64,000 bases of DNA from positions 628,001-692,000 of the forward strand of contig NZ_CP005084.1 of assembly GCF_001563265.1 (NCBI RefSeq), written 5' to 3'. The position numbers and the translations under genes were made by a program. Positions 4,229-25,874 of the stretch are shown here, one piece after another (positions within the stretch are counted from its first letter, which is position 1; every line of letters begins with the position of its first letter). This stretch comes from Sphingobium sp. TKS. GTDB lineage: Bacteria > Pseudomonadota > Alphaproteobacteria > Sphingomonadales > Sphingomonadaceae. The notes beneath the pieces were generated by a model. That model was given only the letters and a program-made list of their open reading frames with translations. It was not told the DNA's origin and did no database searches.

Positions 4229-5422
4229 TCAGGGTCGCGCGCGGTCGAACAGATGGCCGTAGCGCGCATAATAGCCGGCAAGCCGCTCATGCACCTCGCC
4301 CGGATCGATGCCGAACTGTTCCGGACTATGCTTGTGCTTGCCAAGGCGGCTGGCGGCCGGATTATCTGCCAGAAAAGCGGTGATGCGGTCGCGATGCTCG
4401 TCGGTGAAGGACAGAGCGAAGCGGTCGTAGATGCGCTGCATCGCCGCCATCGGATCGGCAACGATATCGCGATGGGCGAGGTCGAGAATGCGGCCCTCGA
4501 TCGCCGGATCATTCGCCCGCGCCTCGGTCGCGCGGGCCATCGCCGCGCACCAGGTGTCGACCACCGACCGGCCGATCGCCTTCAGGTCGTCTGCGCCGCC
4601 CACGGCAGCGAGGAACCCCGCGATCATGCTCGACAACGAAGAGAAGGTCAGCACCGGATCGCGATGCGTCCACACCAGCATCGCGCCGGGATAGGCCTCC
4701 ACCAGACCGGGCAGGTCCATCAGATGCTGCGGTGATTTCAGCGTCCAGCGGCCCTTGGGTCCTTTCCACTGATATTGCTGGAGCATCCGCTTGTGGGTGC
4801 GATATTGCCCTTCCGGCACGGTATCCTGCAACCAGCGGGCGAAATCGGGAACCCCCAGTTCGGCCGGAAAATTGGTGCTGGCGAAATGCAGCATCATGCC
4901 ATGATTGCACTCTCCCGGCTGCGTGCAGTCCATCCGCTGGATATCGGCCAGTTGCGGCGCGTGTTTCAGCCAGTTTTCATAAATGGCCTGCACCTGCGCG
5001 ATGCGCGGATCGCTGTCGAAACTCGCTTCTTCCGGGGCAGGCCAGGGGATATACCATTCCCATTCGCGGGGCGCGCGAGCGGCCGGATCAAGGCAGAGCA
5101 GGTCATAGGTGATCGTCGTCCCGGTGCGCGGCAGGCCGCAGACGATCAGCGGGTCCCCCACGTCCTGCGCGACAATGTCCGGATGCTGCCTTTCGTCTTC
5201 GGCGAAGCGCAACCGGGTCGCGAGCAAACCGACAATCTTGTGATGCGCGGTCTCGCGCAGCTGGGCAGGCGGGTCCATCGCCTCGACCGCTTCGACCAGC
5301 CGGCGAAAGCCCGTCATGAAGGACAGGTCCGGTCCGAAATCGGACAGTCCGGTCGCGGCGCCCGCCTCCGCGATCAGCGCATCGACGTCGAGAGGCGAGC
5401 GCTCCGCGACAGCTCCGTTCAT
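4229..5422 (-). CDS. Sulfotransferase-family protein
   Basis: 397 residues. A P-loop-like PAPS-binding motif, GLPRTGTT, lies at about residues 96-103 and a downstream WTLKSPQHL plus VWTHRDPV segment corresponds to the 3'-phosphate-binding region of the Sulfotransfer_3 group. The family usually moves sulfate from PAPS to a hydroxyl group, cytosolically. ATG at 5422 is chosen because a longer in-frame extension adds low-complexity residues before MNGAVAERS. A second member lies at 12832. It heads an operon with SDR, DUF1214-like and VOC genes, where sulfation of an intermediate is plausible but unproven. Confidence 0.75.
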   Translation of the reverse strand: MNGAVAERSPLDVDALIAEAGAATGLSDFGPDLSFMTGFRRLVEAVEAMDPPAQLRETAHHKIVGLLATRLRFAEDERQHPDIVAQDVGDPLIVCGLPRTGTTITYDLLCLDPAARAPREWEWYIPWPAPEEASFDSDPRIAQVQAIYENWLKHAPQLADIQRMDCTQPGECNHGMMLHFASTNFPAELGVPDFARWLQDTVPEGQYRTHKRMLQQYQWKGPKGRWTLKSPQHLMDLPGLVEAYPGAMLVWTHRDPVLTFSSLSSMIAGFLAAVGGADDLKAIGRSVVDTWCAAMARATEARANDPAIEGRILDLAHRDIVADPMAAMQRIYDRFALSFTDEHRDRITAFLADNPAASRLGKHKHSPEQFGIDPGEVHERLAGYYARYGHLFDRARP

Positions 5423-5543
5423 GAATGCCCCTCGTCCGACCGCTGCCTCATGACTCGCCTCTCCACTATTATTCCACACTGTGTATTTAATAGAAGAGGC
5501 CGTGGTCAAGCAGGCAATTCACTTATGCCCGCAGCGAGCCGCG

Positions 5544-12831: not shown

Positions 12832-14121
12832 ATGGGCAGTCCCGCGCAGGAAGAGGCCGCGCGCCGTAACATCATTGACATTACCGACCTGCATCACCCC
12901 GTGCTGACCGATGTCCAGATGCAGGTGATGGCCGGGGCCGAAGCGGCGGCGGATCAGATCGTCCTCCAGCCGGAGGTCATTTTGACTGCGGCGCAGGCGC
13001 AGACCGGGCTGTCGGATTTCGGCGCGGACGATTTTCGCGAACGGCTGGCCGTATGGTGCCAGGCCGTGGACGAGGATGCCAACGCCTCGGCGGTCACGCG
13101 CGCCAATCTGTTCCAGATGATGATCCGCTTTGCCGCGACCCGCCTGCGGATCGAGGACATAGTGAAGCGCCACCCGGAGATATTGGACATCCAGATCGTC
13201 CGGCCGATCATCGTCGCGGGCCTTCCCCGATCGGGCACGACGCATCTCCTCGGTCTGCTGTCGGCCGACCGCCGGTTCCGCTCCCTGCCCTGGTGGGAAG
13301 CGATCGCGCCGGTTCCCGCCCCTGACGAAACCCCGACACCTGAGGATAGCAATCCCCGCTGGACCAAGGCGGAACAGGGCTGGCGGATGATGGAATCCAT
13401 CCTGCCCCATATGGCGATCATGCACGAATTTTCGCCCGATCATATCAGCGAGGATATCGAGCTTCAGGCGGTCGACTTCTCCTCCTATCTGATCGAGTGG
13501 CTCGCGCATGTGCCGCGCTGGCGCGATTATTATCTCAGCCACGACCAGTCGGGCACCTATGCCTATCTGAAGAAGGGCCTTCAGGTCCTGACATATCTGA
13601 ATGGCTCGAACCGCTGGGTCATCAAATGCCCGCAGCATATGGAGCAGTTACCCGCCCTCTATAAGACCTTTCCCGACGCCACCTTCGTCCTGACCCATCG
13701 CGATCCGGTCGGATCGATCCGGTCGCAGCTCACCATGTATAGCTATGCGGCGCGCATGTTCCGCAAGACGGTCGATATTCAGGAACCGCTTGGCTACTGG
13801 CCCGACCGTTATGAGAAGCTGCTCCGCGCCTGCGTGCGGGATCGCGACATCCTGCCCCCCGACCGGACGATCGATGTCTATTTCCACGACTGGATCAGAA
13901 ATCCCGACCCGATCCTGAAGGAAATCTATCGTATTGCCGACATCCCCCTGACCGATCAGGCGCTGGCCGATATGCACAGCTATCTGGCCGAGCATGGCGA
14001 GCAGACAAAGGGCAAGATCGTCTATGATCTGGAACGCGATTTTCATGTGACCGGCGAGGAATTGCGCCGCCCCTTCGCTTTCTATTTCGATCGTTTCCCG
14101 GTCCAGGTCGAGGTGAAATAG
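12832..14121 (+). CDS. Sulfotransferase-family protein
   Basis: 429 residues, a paralogue of the protein at 4229. The PAPS P-loop is GLPRSGTTHLL at about residues 130-137, and the later segment WVIKCPQHMEQLPALYKTFP plus FVLTHRDPVGS matches the 3'-phosphate-binding region. Expected to sulfate a hydroxyl group using PAPS in the cytoplasm. AAAGGAGAG gives a good ribosome site for the ATG at 12832. It opens the plus-strand run leading to the ferredoxin, SnoaL and Rieske genes. Confidence 0.8.
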   Translation: MGSPAQEEAARRNIIDITDLHHPVLTDVQMQVMAGAEAAADQIVLQPEVILTAAQAQTGLSDFGADDFRERLAVWCQAVDEDANASAVTRANLFQMMIRFAATRLRIEDIVKRHPEILDIQIVRPIIVAGLPRSGTTHLLGLLSADRRFRSLPWWEAIAPVPAPDETPTPEDSNPRWTKAEQGWRMMESILPHMAIMHEFSPDHISEDIELQAVDFSSYLIEWLAHVPRWRDYYLSHDQSGTYAYLKKGLQVLTYLNGSNRWVIKCPQHMEQLPALYKTFPDATFVLTHRDPVGSIRSQLTMYSYAARMFRKTVDIQEPLGYWPDRYEKLLRACVRDRDILPPDRTIDVYFHDWIRNPDPILKEIYRIADIPLTDQALADMHSYLAEHGEQTKGKIVYDLERDFHVTGEELRRPFAFYFDRFPVQVEVK

Positions 14122-14211: not shown

Positions 14212-14529
14212 ATGCCCGAATTGAATGTCATTACCCGTGACGGCGCCCAGCAGACGATCAAGGCATCCGCCGATACGTCAGTGATGGAAGCCATCCGTGA
14301 TTCCGGTTTCGATGAGTTGCTGGCGCTATGTGGCGGCTGTTGCTCCTGCGCGACGTGCCATGTCTATGTCGACCCGGCCTTCGCTCAGTCCCTGCCCCCG
14401 GTATCGGACGATGAAAGCGATCTGCTGGATGGATCGCCGCATCGCAACGACTATTCGCGCCTGTCCTGTCAGGTCATGATGTCGGAAGCGCTTTCGGGCC
14501 TTACGATCACCATCGCGCCTGAAGACTGA
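14212..14529 (+). CDS. Adrenodoxin-type [2Fe-2S] ferredoxin
   Basis: 105 residues. The cluster ligands follow the C-x5-C-x2-C pattern in [16 protein letters not shown], with the fourth cysteine in SRLSCQVMM about 38 residues later, as in plant/vertebrate-type ferredoxins that serve P450s and Rieske oxygenases. AGAGGA lies 5 bp before the ATG. It is the likely electron donor of the Rieske pair at 15838-17864. No ferredoxin reductase is visible in the window. Confidence 0.9.
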
Positions 14530-15105: not shown

Positions 15106-15771
15106 TCAGGCGACCGGAGGAAGGAGGGCGGCGAGCAGGAAGGCGGCCAGGCGATCGGCATGCTCGGCCGCATGCATATCATCCACTTCCTGCCCGGCCC
15201 CCAGCCGCTGCTGCATCGGCACGGCACAGAAATAATAGCCGACCCCCTGCACCAGCAGCGCCATCAACGCCGCCGTCGACAGGCCGTGAACCGGCCGCTG
15301 CAACCGCACCGCGTCGAGCAGACCATCGAGCCGCCGCTGGAACGGCAGCACAAAATGTTCGACGATATGGTCAAGCCGCCAGGTCGAACGGCAGCCTTCC
15401 ACATTGGTCAGCGACACGATGTCGCCATTGCTCGTCGCCCACAGGCAGAAACGCTGGATCAGATGGCGCAGCCGCACTTCCGGATCGGCCGGCTCGTCAA
15501 AAGCGGCTTCGACGAAGGGCGAGGCCTGCGCCATGCGCCAGTCGACCGCGCGTATCCACAGATCCTCCTTCCGGCCGAACCGGACATTCAGGAGATTGTG
15601 GCTGACCCCAAGCCGCTTCGACAGATCGCGCAGCGTCGTTCCCTCATAACCGCGCTCCGCGAAGGTTGAGAAAGCCAGGCCCAACAGCTTGTCCTCATCC
15701 ACGGCCTGGGCGGCATTGAGGGCGGGACGGCCGCGGGTGCGCTGGGGACGATCGAGCATCTGCAGATTCAT
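15106..15771 (-). CDS. TetR-family regulator of the Rieske genes
   Basis: 221 residues. N-terminal HTH at about residues 30-70: LAFSTFAERGYEGTTLRDLSKRLGVSHNLLNVRFGRKEDLW. The C-terminal domain is the ligand-binding helical part. It is transcribed divergently from the Rieske gene at 15838 with only 66 bp between them, so it is likely an autorepressor that also represses the Rieske pair through an inverted repeat there. Confidence 0.85.
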   Translation of the reverse strand: MNLQMLDRPQRTRGRPALNAAQAVDEDKLLGLAFSTFAERGYEGTTLRDLSKRLGVSHNLLNVRFGRKEDLWIRAVDWRMAQASPFVEAAFDEPADPEVRLRHLIQRFCLWATSNGDIVSLTNVEGCRSTWRLDHIVEHFVLPFQRRLDGLLDAVRLQRPVHGLSTAALMALLVQGVGYYFCAVPMQQRLGAGQEVDDMHAAEHADRLAAFLLAALLPPVA

Positions 15772-15837: not shown

Positions 15838-16776
15838 ATGAGTCTCGATTCTGATCTTTGGTGGGCTGTCGCACGGTCCGAGGAAGTGACCTCCGAAAAG
15901 CCGCTGTCCGTCGATATCGGTGATCAGCCGGTCGTGCTGTGGCGCGACAATCACGGTATCGCCCGCGCGCTGGAGGATCGCTGTCCCCATCGTCGCGCCC
16001 CGCTATCGCTGGGCTGCATCCGCGACAATGGCTGGATCCAGTGCGGCTACCATGGCTGGAGCTATGACGGCGAGTCGGGACGCCTGAAGGAAATCCCGAA
16101 CATGAAGGACCAGCAGAAATTCCCGCCGATCTACAAGGCCAATGCCTTTGGCGTCAGCGAGCAGGCGGGCTTCGTGCGGGTCTGCCTCAATCCCAAGGCG
16201 GAAGCGCCGCTCAGCGCCGATCCCAAATACAGCTATATCGGCACGGTCAACGTCAGTTGCAGCCATCAGGAATATCTGAATGCGCTTTATGACGATCCGA
16301 GCCTCGTCATCGCGATCCGCGGTGTCCGCTTCAGCCCCTATCTGATGTCGGAACTGCATGAGGAAGGCGGGATGCTGGTGATGGAGCGCAATTGCCAGTG
16401 GCACCCGCTGCATTGGCCGTCGCATTTCGTGGCCGAATTTCCGCTTACCCTGCTGACGCGCACCCATCCGCTGACTGGCGAGACGCAGTTGACGCTGCGC
16501 GACGACCAATTCAACGATCTGCTCCACGCCGTTCTTTCGCCCGTCCCCTCGGCGCGGGGGGTGACAGCCGTCCGCTGGCGGGCCGAACTGGGCGTTCGCC
16601 ATCCGGGCGTGCGCGGCGCGGTGCTGCGCGGGATCAACCCGCTGTCGGTGCTCGCATCGGTCGACGGATCGAAACTGCGTGCCACCAAGCCCACCGTCTC
16701 GCTGCATGGCGAGGATCTGCGCAAGGCAATGCTGGAAAGCGCCCCCGCGACCCATGATCAGACCGTAGCGGCCTGA
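15838..16776 (+). CDS. Rieske-oxygenase-like protein with intact Rieske but degenerate iron site
   Basis: 312 residues. The Rieske motif is complete: C49-x-H51 in DRCPHRRAPLSLG and C69-x2-H72 in IQCGYHGWSYDG, spacing 17. The vanillate-demethylase-type catalytic domain should then show D-x2-H-x4-H after an Asn; here the equivalent stretch is NALYDDPSLVIAI (about 148-160), with neither histidine. It therefore can hold a [2Fe-2S] cluster but probably no mononuclear iron. ATG at 15838 is preferred; an in-frame TTG at 15784 lies within the promoter. The next gene encodes the complementary half. See findings. Confidence 0.8.
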   Translation: MSLDSDLWWAVARSEEVTSEKPLSVDIGDQPVVLWRDNHGIARALEDRCPHRRAPLSLGCIRDNGWIQCGYHGWSYDGESGRLKEIPNMKDQQKFPPIYKANAFGVSEQAGFVRVCLNPKAEAPLSADPKYSYIGTVNVSCSHQEYLNALYDDPSLVIAIRGVRFSPYLMSELHEEGGMLVMERNCQWHPLHWPSHFVAEFPLTLLTRTHPLTGETQLTLRDDQFNDLLHAVLSPVPSARGVTAVRWRAELGVRHPGVRGAVLRGINPLSVLASVDGSKLRATKPTVSLHGEDLRKAMLESAPATHDQTVAA

Positions 16777-16790
16777 AGGAGGATTTGAAG

Positions 16791-17864
16791 ATGCTCGAAA
16801 CCGCCGATCGTCCCGTTTCGCACGACGACAATTCCGCCGCGCCATCAGGTGGCAACCCGATCGCCCTGAACGCCATCAACCGCTGGGTGCCGCATAATCT
16901 CGTGATGCGCGACAGCTGGTTTCCGGTGGCGCATGATTATTCCGTGACGGGGAAGCCCGTCCGCCGCGCCATCTATTCGCACCCCATCTTCCTGTGGCGC
17001 GACAATGGCGTCGCCGTCGCCAGCGAATTCCATCCCAATGAGCGGATCGCACGCGACAAGAGCGAATTTACCGACGCACGCGGCCGGTATCCGGTGATGG
17101 AACATTATGGCGTGGTCTGGGTGTGGTTCGGCAACCCGCTGGCGGCAGACCCGGCCCATCTCCCCAGCCTGCCCTTCCTCCCTCCCAAGGGTGGCCTGCC
17201 GCGGCACATGACCGCGACCGTCCGCTTTGAGAGCGCCGCGCCGATCAGCCTGGAAAATCTGATCGACCTTACCCATGCCGACTTCCTGCATGCCGACGTC
17301 GTCGGCGACGAACGGTCGGACAGCGAAACCGTGGAAACCTTCTACGACAGCGAGACCGTCACCATGGTCCGCACCTGCGTCAACAAGTCGGTCGCCCCGG
17401 TGATGAAATTCTTCAGCGGCATCAAGCAGCCGACCCAGAATGTGCGGCAGGTGATCCGCATCTATCTGCGCTCTCACTGCGCCATCGCCTATGGCCGGTT
17501 CAGCCCCGGTGACGATGTGCCGCTGTTCCACCCCTGCACGCCCGAAACGCGGGACCGCACGCGGATGGAAATGGTCATGAACACCTCCAACGCGGGCCTG
17601 ATGTTCCGCCATGTCATGCCCAAGGCGGGTTACAAGGTGTCGCGGCAGGACAGCTACATGACCTCGCCGCAAAGCCCGCGCTATATGCGCCATACCGACC
17701 GCAAGGACCTGCACAGCAAGTTCGACCAGGCCGGGCAGCGCTATCGCATGGCGATGATGGAACTTGCCGACCGGCAGGCGAAGGGCGACTTCGCCTATCG
17801 CGACAATGTCAGCGCCGATTGCAGCGACATCATCGGCCTGCGCAAGGAACTGTTCCAGTTCTGA
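16791..17864 (+). CDS. Rieske-oxygenase-like catalytic protein lacking the Rieske cluster
   Basis: 357 residues. The catalytic iron motif is present: N156, D159-x2-H162-x4-H167 in LENLIDLTHADFLHADVVGDE. The N-terminal region aligns in layout with a Rieske domain (IFLWRDNGVAVASEF, then VVWVWFGNP), yet the four cluster ligands are absent: where CPHR and CxxH should be it reads FHPNERIARDKSEFTD. Thus it has the mononuclear iron and no electron-entry cluster. AAGGAGG lies 7 bp before the ATG and 14 bp separate it from the Rieske-bearing partner. Likely an obligate hetero-oligomer. Confidence 0.8.
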   Translation: MLETADRPVSHDDNSAAPSGGNPIALNAINRWVPHNLVMRDSWFPVAHDYSVTGKPVRRAIYSHPIFLWRDNGVAVASEFHPNERIARDKSEFTDARGRYPVMEHYGVVWVWFGNPLAADPAHLPSLPFLPPKGGLPRHMTATVRFESAAPISLENLIDLTHADFLHADVVGDERSDSETVETFYDSETVTMVRTCVNKSVAPVMKFFSGIKQPTQNVRQVIRIYLRSHCAIAYGRFSPGDDVPLFHPCTPETRDRTRMEMVMNTSNAGLMFRHVMPKAGYKVSRQDSYMTSPQSPRYMRHTDRKDLHSKFDQAGQRYRMAMMELADRQAKGDFAYRDNVSADCSDIIGLRKELFQF

Positions 17865-22054: not shown

Positions 22055-22711
22055 TCACGCCTCCAGCGGCACGAGTTCGCCCGTGATGCGAATGCCCGCG
22101 CCGTCGACCTTATAAGTCTTGTTCATGAAGATCAGGATCGACGTCAGCGCTTCGGCAGCGGCGGAATTGACGAGCGCACCACCATGCAGCCCCCGCAACC
22201 CCATGGCATCAGCCAGTGCCACAACGCGCGCCCGGGCATCCTTGTCATCGCCAAATACCAGCACGTCGCACCCGACATCGACATCCTTCGCCAGCTTGTG
22301 CGCGGCGACATTGTGGAAAGCGGAGACCAGCGTGACATCCTGTCCCAGCACGTCCTGCGCCTTCTGGGCGGCGGAGCCTTCATCCGGCAACTGGACGCGC
22401 ATCACCTTGGGCGGAACGAGCGGGACAGTCGTGTCCACGACCAGCTTGCCCGCGACATGGGGGGCAATGTCGCGAAGCGTCGCCTCCTGTGCGGCAAAGG
22501 GCACCGTCACGATGACAATGTCCGCTTCCGCCGCGACATCCGCATTGGCGCCCCCGCGCAGACCGTGCCCCAGTTCCGAGGCTGCCTTTTCCGCACTTTC
22601 GGCTTTTCGCGATCCGATCGTCACGGGATAACCGGCACGCGCCAGCCGCCAGGCGATCGCAGCGCCCAGATTGCCGGTGCCGCCGACGACGGCAATGGCA
22701 GGAAATGTCAT
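22055..22711 (-). CDS. npdG: NADPH:coenzyme F420 reductase
   Basis: 218 residues. The NADPH site is IAVVGGTGNLGAAIAWRLARAGYPVTIGSRK at the N-terminus, followed by IVIVTVPFAAQE, VVDTTVPLVPPK and LVSAFHNVAAHKL, and a C-terminal helix VNSAAAEALTSILIFMN. These are the marks of F420H2:NADP oxidoreductase (Fno/NpdG), which recharges F420 for F420-dependent enzymes. The ATG at 22711 overlaps the SDR stop at 22708 (ATGA). It is the last gene of the FO-synthase operon. Confidence 0.85.
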   Translation of the reverse strand: MTFPAIAVVGGTGNLGAAIAWRLARAGYPVTIGSRKAESAEKAASELGHGLRGGANADVAAEADIVIVTVPFAAQEATLRDIAPHVAGKLVVDTTVPLVPPKVMRVQLPDEGSAAQKAQDVLGQDVTLVSAFHNVAAHKLAKDVDVGCDVLVFGDDKDARARVVALADAMGLRGLHGGALVNSAAAEALTSILIFMNKTYKVDGAGIRITGELVPLEA

Positions 22712-23538
22712 AGAATGTCCTTCGATTGGTTGGCGGTAAAGCGCATCATGTCTGCAAATACCGCGGAATGGGACGTGAACCCGCCGTCGGCGACAATCGA
22801 AGCGCCGGTGATGTAGCGGGATTGATCGGATGCCAGAAACGCGACTACCTCTGCAATATCCTCCGGCCGACCGAGATAGTCGACCATATTATGCTCCCGC
22901 ATCAGCGCCTGTGCCTCCGGCGGCATGTTGCGGTCCAGAGCCTCCGTCATCACCAGCCCGACAACGACGACATTGGACCGGATGCCCTGCTTTCCATATT
23001 GCGTGGCGATATAGCGGGACAGGCTGAGCAGGCCGGCCTTGGTCGTGCCATAAGCGGGAAAGTCGAGATCCCCGGCGAGGCCCTTGCCCGATCCGGTAAA
23101 GACGACCGAACCGCCGCCCGCAGCGATCATGCGCGGGATGGCATGTTTTGCGGTGAGCATCGCCCCGCGAAGGTTGACCGCAAAGGCACGGTCCCAGAAG
23201 TCGGCATCCATATCTGCGATCAGCCCATCACCGGCCAACATACCGGTCTGCGCTGCATTGGCGTGCAGGATGTCGAGCCTGCCGAAACGATCCACGACCT
23301 GGGCGATGCCGTTCGCCACCGTCTCCTCGTCGGTGACATCCATGATGAGGGCGATCGCCTCTCCGCCAGTTGCCTCGACCCGCGCGACGGCTTCATCGAG
23401 CGGCGCAGCCTCCGGCCCTGCCACGGCGATCTTCGCCCCACGGCCCGCCAGCATGAGCGCGGTGGCCAGACCGATGCCGGTTCCTCCGCCGGTGACAATC
23501 GCAACCTTGTCCTTCACCGGATATTGCAGGTCGGTCAT
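22708..23538 (-). CDS. Short-chain dehydrogenase/reductase (SDR)
   Basis: 276 residues. Cofactor motif VTGGGTGIGLATALMLAGRGA, LHANAAQTG, serine in VVFTGSGKGLA and catalytic YGTTK, ending in GASIVADGGFT. An alcohol dehydrogenase of the classical type. It overlaps both FbiC (stop at 23535 with its ATG at 23538) and NpdG by 4 bp, so it is translationally coupled to F420 cofactor genes. Its substrate is presumably an alcohol or ketone of the same pathway. Confidence 0.85.
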   Translation of the reverse strand: MTDLQYPVKDKVAIVTGGGTGIGLATALMLAGRGAKIAVAGPEAAPLDEAVARVEATGGEAIALIMDVTDEETVANGIAQVVDRFGRLDILHANAAQTGMLAGDGLIADMDADFWDRAFAVNLRGAMLTAKHAIPRMIAAGGGSVVFTGSGKGLAGDLDFPAYGTTKAGLLSLSRYIATQYGKQGIRSNVVVVGLVMTEALDRNMPPEAQALMREHNMVDYLGRPEDIAEVVAFLASDQSRYITGASIVADGGFTSHSAVFADMMRFTANQSKDIL

Positions 23539-25874
23539 AGCGTCTCCGATAAGGCAAGGGGCCGTGGCGGCACCGGTTGATAAAGTGTCGTGCGCTGGCG
23601 GACAGGCCGTCCCACCGAGGCCGCCAGAGCCTGCATTTCCTTAGGCCCGAATTCCTGCCCATTGACGCCACCGGCAGCCCGGGTAATCGATTCATCCATC
23701 AGCGTGCCACCCATGTCATTGGCGCCTGCATTCAGGATCGCCGCGGCCCCTTCCGGTCCCATCTTCACCCAGGACACCTGGATATTGGGGATCACCGGAT
23801 GCAGCACGATGCGCGCCACCGCGTGCATCAACACGGCCTCCCGATAGCTTGGCCCGGACCGTGCCAGCCCCTTGCGCCAGATCGGCGATTCCATATGCAC
23901 GAACGGCAGCGGCACGAATTCGGTGAAGCCGCCCGTCTCCTCCTGCAACCCGCGGATGCGGAGCAGATGGCGCGCCCAATGGCGATATTCCTCGACATGG
24001 CCGAACATGATCGTCGCCGTGCTGCGCAGGCCCACCCCATGCGCCACGCGCATCACCTCGATCCACTCATCCGCCGTCACCTTGTCAGGGCAGATGATGG
24101 CGCGAACTTCGGGATCCAGTATCTCCGCCGCCGTGCCGGGTAGCGTGGACAGCCCCGCTTCCCTCAGCCGTGCCAGATAATCCTCCAGCGGCAGACCGAG
24201 CGTGCGCGCACCGTGCGTCACCTCCAGCGGCGAAAAGGCATGGATATGAATATCGGGCGCGGCCTCACGCACTGCCTTCAGGACATCAAGATAGGTGTGA
24301 CCGTCATAATCGGGATGAATCCCGCCCTGAAGGCAGACTTCGGTCGCGCCGCGATCCCAGGCTTCGGCCGCGCGGCGTCCGATCTCCTCCATGTCGAGCC
24401 TGTAGGCCGGACCGCGCATGGCCTTGGTGCTGCCCTTCGAGAAGGCGCAGAAACCACATTTGTAGAGGCAGATATTGGTATAGTTGATGTTGCGGTTGAC
24501 CGCATAGGTCAGCATGTCGCCCACGGCCTGCCGCCTCAACCGATCGGCCTGGTTGACGATGGCGGTGAAATCATCCTGCTCGGCATCGAACAGGGTGACA
24601 ATGTCCGCTTCGCTCAGCCGCTCACCCTCCTCCGCCGCGGCAAGGATGGAGAGGACCGATCGGGAGGCCAGAACGGGCTCCACGGCCATGATGTCGGGCG
24701 CGGGATCGCCATGCCCTGCGGACCAGTCGTCGACCTTGGGCAATCCCCGCCCGTCGATGGCACGCAGGATCTGGGTGGCGATGGCTGGCGCTACCCAATC
24801 CCGCGCGGCGAGCGCATGACGCGGACCGATGGCGAGCCGCTGCATCAATATGCGGCCCGCGGCTTTGGTGGCGTCCTCCAATATCTCCAGATGCGGCCAG
24901 GGCGCCTCCGGGTTTACATGGTCCGGCGTCACGGGCGACACCCCGCCCCAATCATTGACGCCGGCCCGGATCAGCGGCGCCAGATCGACGCGATCGTGGA
25001 GATTGGGCGGTGCCTGGATCGTCATCTCAGGCCCCAGGATGATCCGCGCGGCGGCGATGCCCCAAAGATGATCGTCAAGCGACGGTTCGGCATGATCCGC
25101 CATCCGCGTTCCCGGCTTTGCGCGGAAATTCTGGATGATGACTTCCTGAACATGGCCGTAGCGGCGATGCAGATCGCGAATGGCGACCAGCGCTTCCACC
25201 TGCTCATCGCGGGTTTCGCCGATGCCGATCAGCAGGCCGGTCGTGAATGGCACGCGCGCCCGTCCGGCCTCCTCGATGGCGGCCAATCGCAGGGCCGGCT
25301 CCTTGTCGGGCGAACCGAAATGCGGGCCGCCGCGTGCGCACAGCCGGTCGGAACTGCTTTCCAGCATGATGCCCATGGAAGCGGAATGCGGCCTCAACAG
25401 CGCATAGTCGGCGCTGTCCATCAGACCGGGATTGAGATGAGGCAGCAAGCCCGTCTCGCGGAACACCAGTTCCGCCATTTCGGCAAGATAGGACAGGGTC
25501 GAGTCATGCCCAAGCCCCGCGAGAGCCTCACGCGCAGCGGCATAGCGGGCCTCCGGCCTATCGCCGAGCGTGAAAAGGGCTTCCCGGCATCCGGCCGCCG
25601 CCCCCGCGCGGGCAATGGCCAGAACCTCGTCTCTGCTGAGATAGGCATCACCGGCGCGGGCCGGCGTGGTGGCGAAGGTGCAATAATGGCAGACGTCGCG
25701 GCACAATTTGGTGAGGGGGATGAAGACCTTGCGCGAATAGGTCACGCGACGGCCATGCGCTGCGACCGTCATCGCCTCCGCTGCCTCCATCATGTCCGCA
25801 AGGGACGGGGATCGCAGCACCGCCGCAATCCCGGCCGCTTCGTCTTCGCTCAGATGCAGTAGATCCAGTGTCAC
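23535..25874 (-). CDS. fbiC: FO synthase, fused CofG-CofH (FbiC)
   Basis: 779 residues, two radical SAM domains. The CofG half has C58-x3-C62-x2-C65 in LCRDVCHYCTF; the CofH half has C469-x3-C473-x2-C476 in ICLYKCGFC. Together these make the 5-deazaflavin FO, the core of F420, from tyrosine and 5-amino-6-ribitylaminouracil. The start is GTG at 25874, overlapping the LLM stop as GTGA; no in-frame ATG is nearer. CofC, CofD and CofE homologues were not seen in the window. Length matches known FbiC fusions, though such fusions were first known from actinobacteria. Confidence 0.95.
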   Translation of the reverse strand: MTLDLLHLSEDEAAGIAAVLRSPSLADMMEAAEAMTVAAHGRRVTYSRKVFIPLTKLCRDVCHYCTFATTPARAGDAYLSRDEVLAIARAGAAAGCREALFTLGDRPEARYAAAREALAGLGHDSTLSYLAEMAELVFRETGLLPHLNPGLMDSADYALLRPHSASMGIMLESSSDRLCARGGPHFGSPDKEPALRLAAIEEAGRARVPFTTGLLIGIGETRDEQVEALVAIRDLHRRYGHVQEVIIQNFRAKPGTRMADHAEPSLDDHLWGIAAARIILGPEMTIQAPPNLHDRVDLAPLIRAGVNDWGGVSPVTPDHVNPEAPWPHLEILEDATKAAGRILMQRLAIGPRHALAARDWVAPAIATQILRAIDGRGLPKVDDWSAGHGDPAPDIMAVEPVLASRSVLSILAAAEEGERLSEADIVTLFDAEQDDFTAIVNQADRLRRQAVGDMLTYAVNRNINYTNICLYKCGFCAFSKGSTKAMRGPAYRLDMEEIGRRAAEAWDRGATEVCLQGGIHPDYDGHTYLDVLKAVREAAPDIHIHAFSPLEVTHGARTLGLPLEDYLARLREAGLSTLPGTAAEILDPEVRAIICPDKVTADEWIEVMRVAHGVGLRSTATIMFGHVEEYRHWARHLLRIRGLQEETGGFTEFVPLPFVHMESPIWRKGLARSGPSYREAVLMHAVARIVLHPVIPNIQVSWVKMGPEGAAAILNAGANDMGGTLMDESITRAAGGVNGQEFGPKEMQALAASVGRPVRQRTTLYQPVPPRPLALSETL

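Follow-up and report, generated by a model that had tools for sequence, protein, structure and literature searches.

Two adjacent genes of Sphingobium sp. TKS encode alpha-like Rieske oxygenase chains with complementary metal sites: protein A bears a Rieske cluster and a catalytic domain without an iron site, and protein B bears the iron site and a Rieske domain that has lost its cluster loops. We consider it likely that A and B together form an obligate hetero-oligomeric terminal Rieske oxygenase, in which the cluster of A feeds the iron of B and neither chain acts alone. Complementary site loss, a predicted shared fold, pairing across genomes, a single clade for each chain, and purifying selection were observed.

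Metal sites of the two chains

Both genes lie on the forward strand of the window, the whole 64,000-nucleotide stretch that was analysed. The gene for protein A (312 aa) occupies 15838..16776, with its ATG at 15838, and that for protein B occupies 16791..17864. The gap of 14 bases between them (16777..16790, +) contains an AAGGAGG ribosome-binding site ahead of the ATG at 16791. We placed the start of B at this ATG (357 aa), whose Met is conserved among relatives; the ORF list starts it at a TTG two codons upstream (359 aa). Residues of B are numbered here from the TTG, and D161, H164, and H169 are the same ligands as D159, H162, and H167 counted from the ATG.

A scan of named genomes with a B profile yielded 79 loci (best 80 of 266 relatives). 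Adding the window and six further stretches gave 86 A's and 88 B rows, the latter stemming from 87 genes because one gene is split over two rows. That gene (L057:8968-10077) is the frameshifted B of a pair in a Paraburkholderia metagenome bin, read as two frames, and may reflect an assembly error. For comparison we used 30 ordinary oxygenases, comprising 21 frames from other pair-carrying genomes, four from the phylum run described below, and five picked from the host. A search with the A profile supplied these controls, and we retained those with the cluster motif and more than 290 aa, a filter that dropped no row. Because they were found through their Rieske part and kept for the cluster motif, their iron site provides a free test. 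At the same alignment columns, all 30 had the iron ligands, with D as the bridging residue in 28 and E in 2, and all 30 had the cluster ligands.

Protein A matched the Rieske family (PF00355, E 4.5e-26), with no VanA_C match and neither an FMN, NAD, nor plant-type ferredoxin domain in Pfam at E up to 1. Its cluster ligands C49 (codon at 15982), H51 (15988), C69 (16042), and H72 (16051) are encoded within 15982..16053 (+). All four were present in 121/121 sequences (the window plus 120 listed of 399 relatives). Among the locus A's, C49, C69, and H72 occurred in 86/86 and H51 in 85/86, the remaining residue being an X that stems from an N in the assembly. Two residues after the metal-binding H51 is R53 (15994-15996, +), which is specific to A (86/86 A's vs 1/30 ordinary oxygenases). 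The iron site is represented by a degenerate helix (residues 143-160; 16264..16317, +) that is shortened in the predicted structure, with D152 (16291-16293) as the sole retained residue of the site. Both hhalign and the helix register of the models align D152 with the bridging D161 of B. No iron motif was found at the iron site (152-160) in any of the 86 A's, and the interval from 152 to 165 held no His in 56 of them and one in the other 30, never more. Searching whole sequences for a D-x2-H-x3/4-H pattern returned nothing in 83/86. The three hits, at residues 135-143 (L032, L038) and 167-174 (L058), were off-site and taken as chance. Since D152 (85/86) and, mostly, D276 (82/86) are retained, the catalytic domain of A may still have some role.

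Protein B showed the reverse pattern. It matched VanA_C (PF19112, E 5.9e-32, 111.8 vs a gathering cut-off of 23.5) and had no Rieske match. Its iron site (17253..17291, +) comprises E157, N158, the bridging D161, H164, the B-specific D166, and H169, each in 87/88 rows with a gap in the other. The third iron ligand, the distal Asp D289 (17649..17651, +), was likewise found in 87/88 rows, the other being a gap, and is D in 30/30 ordinary oxygenases. E157, N158, D161, H164, and H169 occurred in 121/121 B's (the window plus 120 listed of 240 relatives), and D289 had a frequency of 1.00. D166, two residues after the metal-binding H164, was present in 87/87 B genes vs 1/30 ordinary oxygenases. The remnant of the Rieske domain lies between anchors W71 and E106 (16995..17102, +), where the cluster loops have been deleted. 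The interval between these anchors measured 31-40 residues in B (median 37, n=87), as against 73-74 in A (n=86) and 70 in a single ordinary oxygenase from the host genome, leaving B short of about 37 residues that bear the cluster loops. No B (0/87) had a cluster motif at the cluster site. A cluster pattern in one of the 88 rows (L082) includes the W71 anchor instead of the deleted loops, and was taken as chance.

The initial annotation had read A as retaining C49, H51, C69, and H72 without an iron site, and B as retaining the D-H-H triad without cluster ligands; these residues and coordinates were all borne out, and D289 can be added to its description of B. It had described the iron site of A as replaced. 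Substitutions are indeed present, and deletions are also involved, in the loops of B and the shortened helix of A. Judged by what defines a single-chain alpha subunit, A is without the iron site, B is without the cluster, and A and B together have both.

We also inspected the other Rieske frames of the host genome, where 21 matches comprised A, 14 frames with both motifs, four of ferredoxin size, and two others, L128 and L129. L128 has the cluster alone. L129 (G000 contig C5, 41967-42074) is a 364 aa oxygenase-like frame that has the second half of the cluster motif (C-N-Y-H) and an iron motif and, as read, is without the first C-x-H; the gene may be decayed or truncated, or it may encode a further oxygenase that lacks a cluster. 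A further host frame, L132 (G000 contig C8, 14345-14830), encodes a VanA_C piece of 206 aa with no Rieske domain and may be an ordinary oxygenase that has been truncated. Given L129 and L132, site loss is rare yet not wholly confined to A and B. Host frames L006 and L007 were considered as lacking an iron site, and proved ordinary, with a short-spaced D-x2-H-x3-H motif. These two frames (G000 contig C1), which lie at separate sites in the host genome, agree in length and scores and may stem from a duplication. The same motif was seen in the five inspected members of a candidate second split family (L199-L206, eight oxygenases of other genomes), all eight of which have aligned ligands and were classed as ordinary.

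Pairing, fold, and phylogeny

A lay directly upstream of B in 78 of the 79 loci, counts that are not independent because near-copies are included and a few pairs were entered twice; the remaining locus, L050, begins at a contig end. We then considered 39 whole genomes taken from these loci, and hence chosen as B carriers. Their 48 B matches (48/48) adjoined 48/48 strong A matches (at least 181 bits), one to one, with one of these A matches (G810, C10) spanning the profile only in part. A further 64 A matches in the 39 genomes scored at most 116.2 bits, mainly over the Rieske part, and 20 inspected stretches, holding 21 of these weaker matches, encoded ordinary oxygenases.

In unselected samples, each counted with the host genome included, A and B occurred in the same 3/149 genomes of the family and the same 5/346 genomes of the order. 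A phylum sample, searched with A only, had full-length A in 1/398 genomes (the host itself) and matches to the Rieske part in four others. Scoring in the runs on the order and the phylum was capped at 5 or 6 candidates for each genome, so weak paralogues may have escaped notice. A lone A or a lone B was found neither in the 39 B-carrying genomes nor in the unselected family and order samples, nor a lone A in the phylum sample. As the inspected loci come from the best 80 of 266 B relatives, a lone B may exist among the 186 remoter ones. We also looked for the two outcomes it had named as arguing against a complementary pair, intact versions of the missing ligands and full-site orthologues of either chain occurring alone, and found neither. 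Several candidates for lone genes were rejected. Coordinates showed that six apparently lone A's were overlapping reading frames with B directly adjoining, and eight apparently lone B's comprised six overlapping frames, L050 at its contig start, and the second piece of the frameshifted L057 B.

By record names, the pair is present in alpha-, beta-, and gammaproteobacteria. Some genomes carry several pairs (L193-L196), so that paralogues multiply as pairs: a Porticoccaceae bin (G813, the genome of L058) has four, and a gammaproteobacterial bin (G819, the genome of L065) has three.

Structural models of A and B both predicted the Rieske-oxygenase alpha fold, a Rieske domain and a helix-grip catalytic domain, with dicamba monooxygenase nearest along their length. 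The predicted folds agree with the earlier suggestion that both chains derive from alpha subunits. A direct comparison of A with B by hhalign gave a match across 139 columns at 94% probability. A quick tree of 70 rows placed A in one clade and B in another, each with 100% SH-aLRT, and their inner groups largely corresponded; A, B, and ordinary rows met in an open fork with long branches. As each chain forms one clade, a single split event is probable. Across 78 loci, the pairwise distances among A's correlated with those among B's (r 0.967). Both genes are under purifying selection, with dN/dS between the window and five relatives of 0.07-0.14 for A and 0.05-0.07 for B. Read from these sequences, the pair is most likely an old family, descended from a single split that alpha-, beta-, and gammaproteobacteria have retained.

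Genes near the pair

Neighbouring genes were counted from calls made by our own script in flanks of up to 9 kb around 41 close-clade and 38 remote pairs. An adrenodoxin-type 2Fe-2S ferredoxin is encoded upstream of A at 14212..14529 (+) (PF00111, E 1.5e-8; best solved relative 3lxf, E 8.1e-39). The initial annotation had placed it just upstream; it is upstream, with a SnoaL-like gene and a TetR gene in between. The TetR-type regulator, at 15106..15771 (-) (PF00440, E 3.3e-10), is divergent, as had been described. In the examined flanks, the ferredoxin was present at 23/41 close-clade and 4/38 remote pairs, and a TetR gene at 23/41 and 1/38, respectively. This ferredoxin is a plausible electron donor to A. 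With a ferredoxin near only 4 of the 38 remote loci, the donor gene is not always linked to the pair.

The window also encodes a flavoprotein like 3-ketosteroid dehydrogenase, scoring below the cut-off of its model, and an SDR whose best model, also below cut-off, is a hydroxysteroid dehydrogenase. Several F420-type LLM oxidoreductases are found in the neighbourhood. In Pseudomonas vancouverensis (L079:2834-16777), genes for an SDR, a long CoA-transferase of CaiB type, an acyl-CoA dehydrogenase, and a kinase-like protein of APH type come after the pair. A Massilia pair is adjoined by DUF1302, DUF1329, and MMPL genes. Genes of these last three families have been linked to alicyclic or steroid-like compounds. 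Our guess is that the neighbours point to an alicyclic or steroid-like substrate, a hydrophobic alicyclic compound. No characterised pathway matched the gene neighbourhood of the pair in our substrate search, and passages of a paper on Sphingobium Chol11 (PMC8540908) hold no description of the pair.

Other genes nearby were recorded as observations in their own right. An NADPH-F420 reductase, NpdG (22055-22711, -; 182 bits vs a cut-off of 149.8), and a bifunctional CofGH (23535-25874, -; 1147 bits vs a cut-off of 1018) are encoded near the pair, and CofGH was present in the examined flanks of 13/41 close-clade pairs. In its main text, a 2021 review of F420 (PMC8498797) uses none of the terms sphingomonad, Sphingobium, or Novosphingobium. 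Two proteins of the Sulfotransfer_3 family are encoded near the pair, at 12832-14121 (+) and 4229-5509 (-); the former gene was found in the examined flanks of 28/41 close-clade pairs. In P. vancouverensis, a MarR/EmrAB-like efflux set lies upstream of the pair (L079).

A proposed two-chain oxygenase and its alternatives

From the complementary sites and the pairing we infer a physical complex, an electron path, catalysis, and a substrate. A and B would be two divergent alpha subunits of one oxygenase. The ferredoxin would reduce the [2Fe-2S] cluster of A, whose Rieske domain would dock onto the catalytic domain of B in the head-to-tail manner of adjacent subunits in ordinary Rieske oxygenases. 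Electrons would then cross via the bridging D161 of B to the mononuclear iron held by H164, H169, and D289, where O2 and the substrate, perhaps hydrophobic, would react. According to a 2025 review (PMC12445004), the distance between cluster and iron is about 12 A between subunits and about 45 A within one, and a conserved Asp links the iron to the Rieske cluster of the neighbouring subunit. With A giving the cluster and B giving the iron and the bridging Asp, one such contact per A-B pair would yield a working enzyme. A charge pair is expected of a dedicated contact between A and B, and we propose, on the basis of sequence, that R53 of A and D166 of B form a heteromer-specific salt bridge.

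The same review states that structurally characterised Rieske oxygenases consistently form C3-symmetric oligomers (PMC12445004). Alternation of two chain types is impossible in a three-membered head-to-tail ring, which makes the split pair striking and means that its assembly would have to differ from the usual homotrimer. Candidate stoichiometries include an AB dimer, an AB2 or A2B trimer, an even-numbered ring, and a trimer of dimers. One tentative possibility, to which we give somewhat less than even weight, is a one-way heteromer. Here the contact between the cluster of A and the iron of B would be locked by R53-D166, and the reverse contact would have been dismantled on both sides, by deletion of the cluster loops in B and shortening of the iron-site helix in A. 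The enzyme would thus have left the C3 ring of known Rieske oxygenases and would work as an AB dimer or a different asymmetric assembly, each iron being served by a single electron-transfer interface.

Other explanations assign A a looser role. B could form an iron-site homo-oligomer to which A, a diffusing Rieske-type carrier, makes transient contact, its dead catalytic domain a mere dock. Rieske-type ferredoxins exist, the Rieske domain is the best-conserved part of A, and NdmC is fed by the Rieske domain of another protein (PMC4408171). However, the alpha-subunit fold of A, with its conserved catalytic-domain residues, and the purifying selection on A in five comparisons are more than a carrier needs, and a stable complex better matches the 1:1 adjacent gene order, so we regard a diffusing carrier as unlikely. 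There is very little likelihood that A is a pseudoenzyme serving in regulation or as a scaffold, with B receiving electrons from another Rieske protein. The host does have 20 Rieske matches besides A, but the cluster ligands of A are invariant, which a scaffold would not need, and scanning the 79 loci with the A profile returned just one further Rieske-type frame besides A (L082).

Co-inheritance of the pair also fits two proteins working in sequence. B might be a mononuclear iron protein with non-oxygenase chemistry, consistent with the lack of its own cluster, and A might have a separate redox role in the same pathway, consistent with the redox pathway genes that co-occur with the pair. Such a non-oxygenase role for B is highly improbable given that all 87 B genes retain the bridging D161, the known role of which, according to the review cited above, is to link the iron to a neighbouring cluster (PMC12445004). 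Sequencing error or decaying pseudogenes might be suggested by the one relative with a frameshifted B (L057, in a metagenome bin). The same architecture recurs in 78/79 loci and among the listed relatives (120 for each chain), and dN/dS is 0.05-0.14; we therefore considered an artefact or pseudogene, the least credible of these explanations, to be ruled out by the conserved ligands, the pairing across loci, and dN/dS.

With a hetero-oligomeric oxygenase as the preferred reading, we compared the pair with known systems. By analogy, its closest precedent is the two-chain chlorophyllide a oxygenase of the alga Micromonas pusilla (MpCAO), with the NdmCDE system a weaker one. Work by Kunugi et al. 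in 2013 reportedly found the cluster on one MpCAO chain and the iron on the other. As described in PMC9615114, MpCAO consists of two chains, was earlier suggested to be a heterodimer, and is active in vitro, and the authors consider an architecture like a trimer of dimers likely. The likeness is of a Rieske oxygenase in two polypeptides, with one metal site per chain in the A-B pair as judged from its residues. The two systems, likened here by description, differ in that MpCAO is eukaryotic and biosynthetic, whereas A and B are bacterial and dicamba-monooxygenase-like, with catabolic-looking gene neighbourhoods.

The initial annotation had offered NdmC as a partial precedent and missed the closer Micromonas enzyme. 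The comparison holds insofar as the caffeine N7-demethylase NdmCDE has a catalytic chain without a cluster and a cluster on another protein. In NdmCDE, however, the Rieske domain is fused to a reductase and the GST-like NdmE is required (PMC4408171), whereas A is without a reductase domain, and no GST family was found among the Pfam-scanned genes (10 in L079 and 17 in the window, with A and B among the latter). NdmA/NdmB resembles the pair in having two different alpha chains per complex, an alpha3 alpha'3 heterohexamer (PMC12445004). The nearest solved folds and sequences to A and B are DdmC (dicamba O-demethylase), the guaiacol O-demethylase 7qwt, and SxtT/GxtA, in which, unlike the pair, both metal sites belong to a single chain; the review gives the assembly of DMO, SxtT, and GxtA as an alpha3 trimer (PMC12445004). 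None of the records listed from an open-access library described a bacterial pair of this kind, and one may be in print elsewhere.

In ordinary Rieske oxygenases, electron routes between and within chains are hard to separate because each chain bears both metals. A natural pair with one metal per chain would make the direction, stoichiometry, and gating of electron transfer directly testable, as each metal can be mutated, labelled, or removed separately. Current annotation, under the names 'Rieske (2Fe-2S) protein' and 'aromatic ring-hydroxylating dioxygenase subunit alpha', treats A and B as two unrelated proteins. Recognising them as a pair defines a widespread bacterial oxygenase family, one that may correspond, in bacteria, to the two-chain chlorophyllide a oxygenase of algae.
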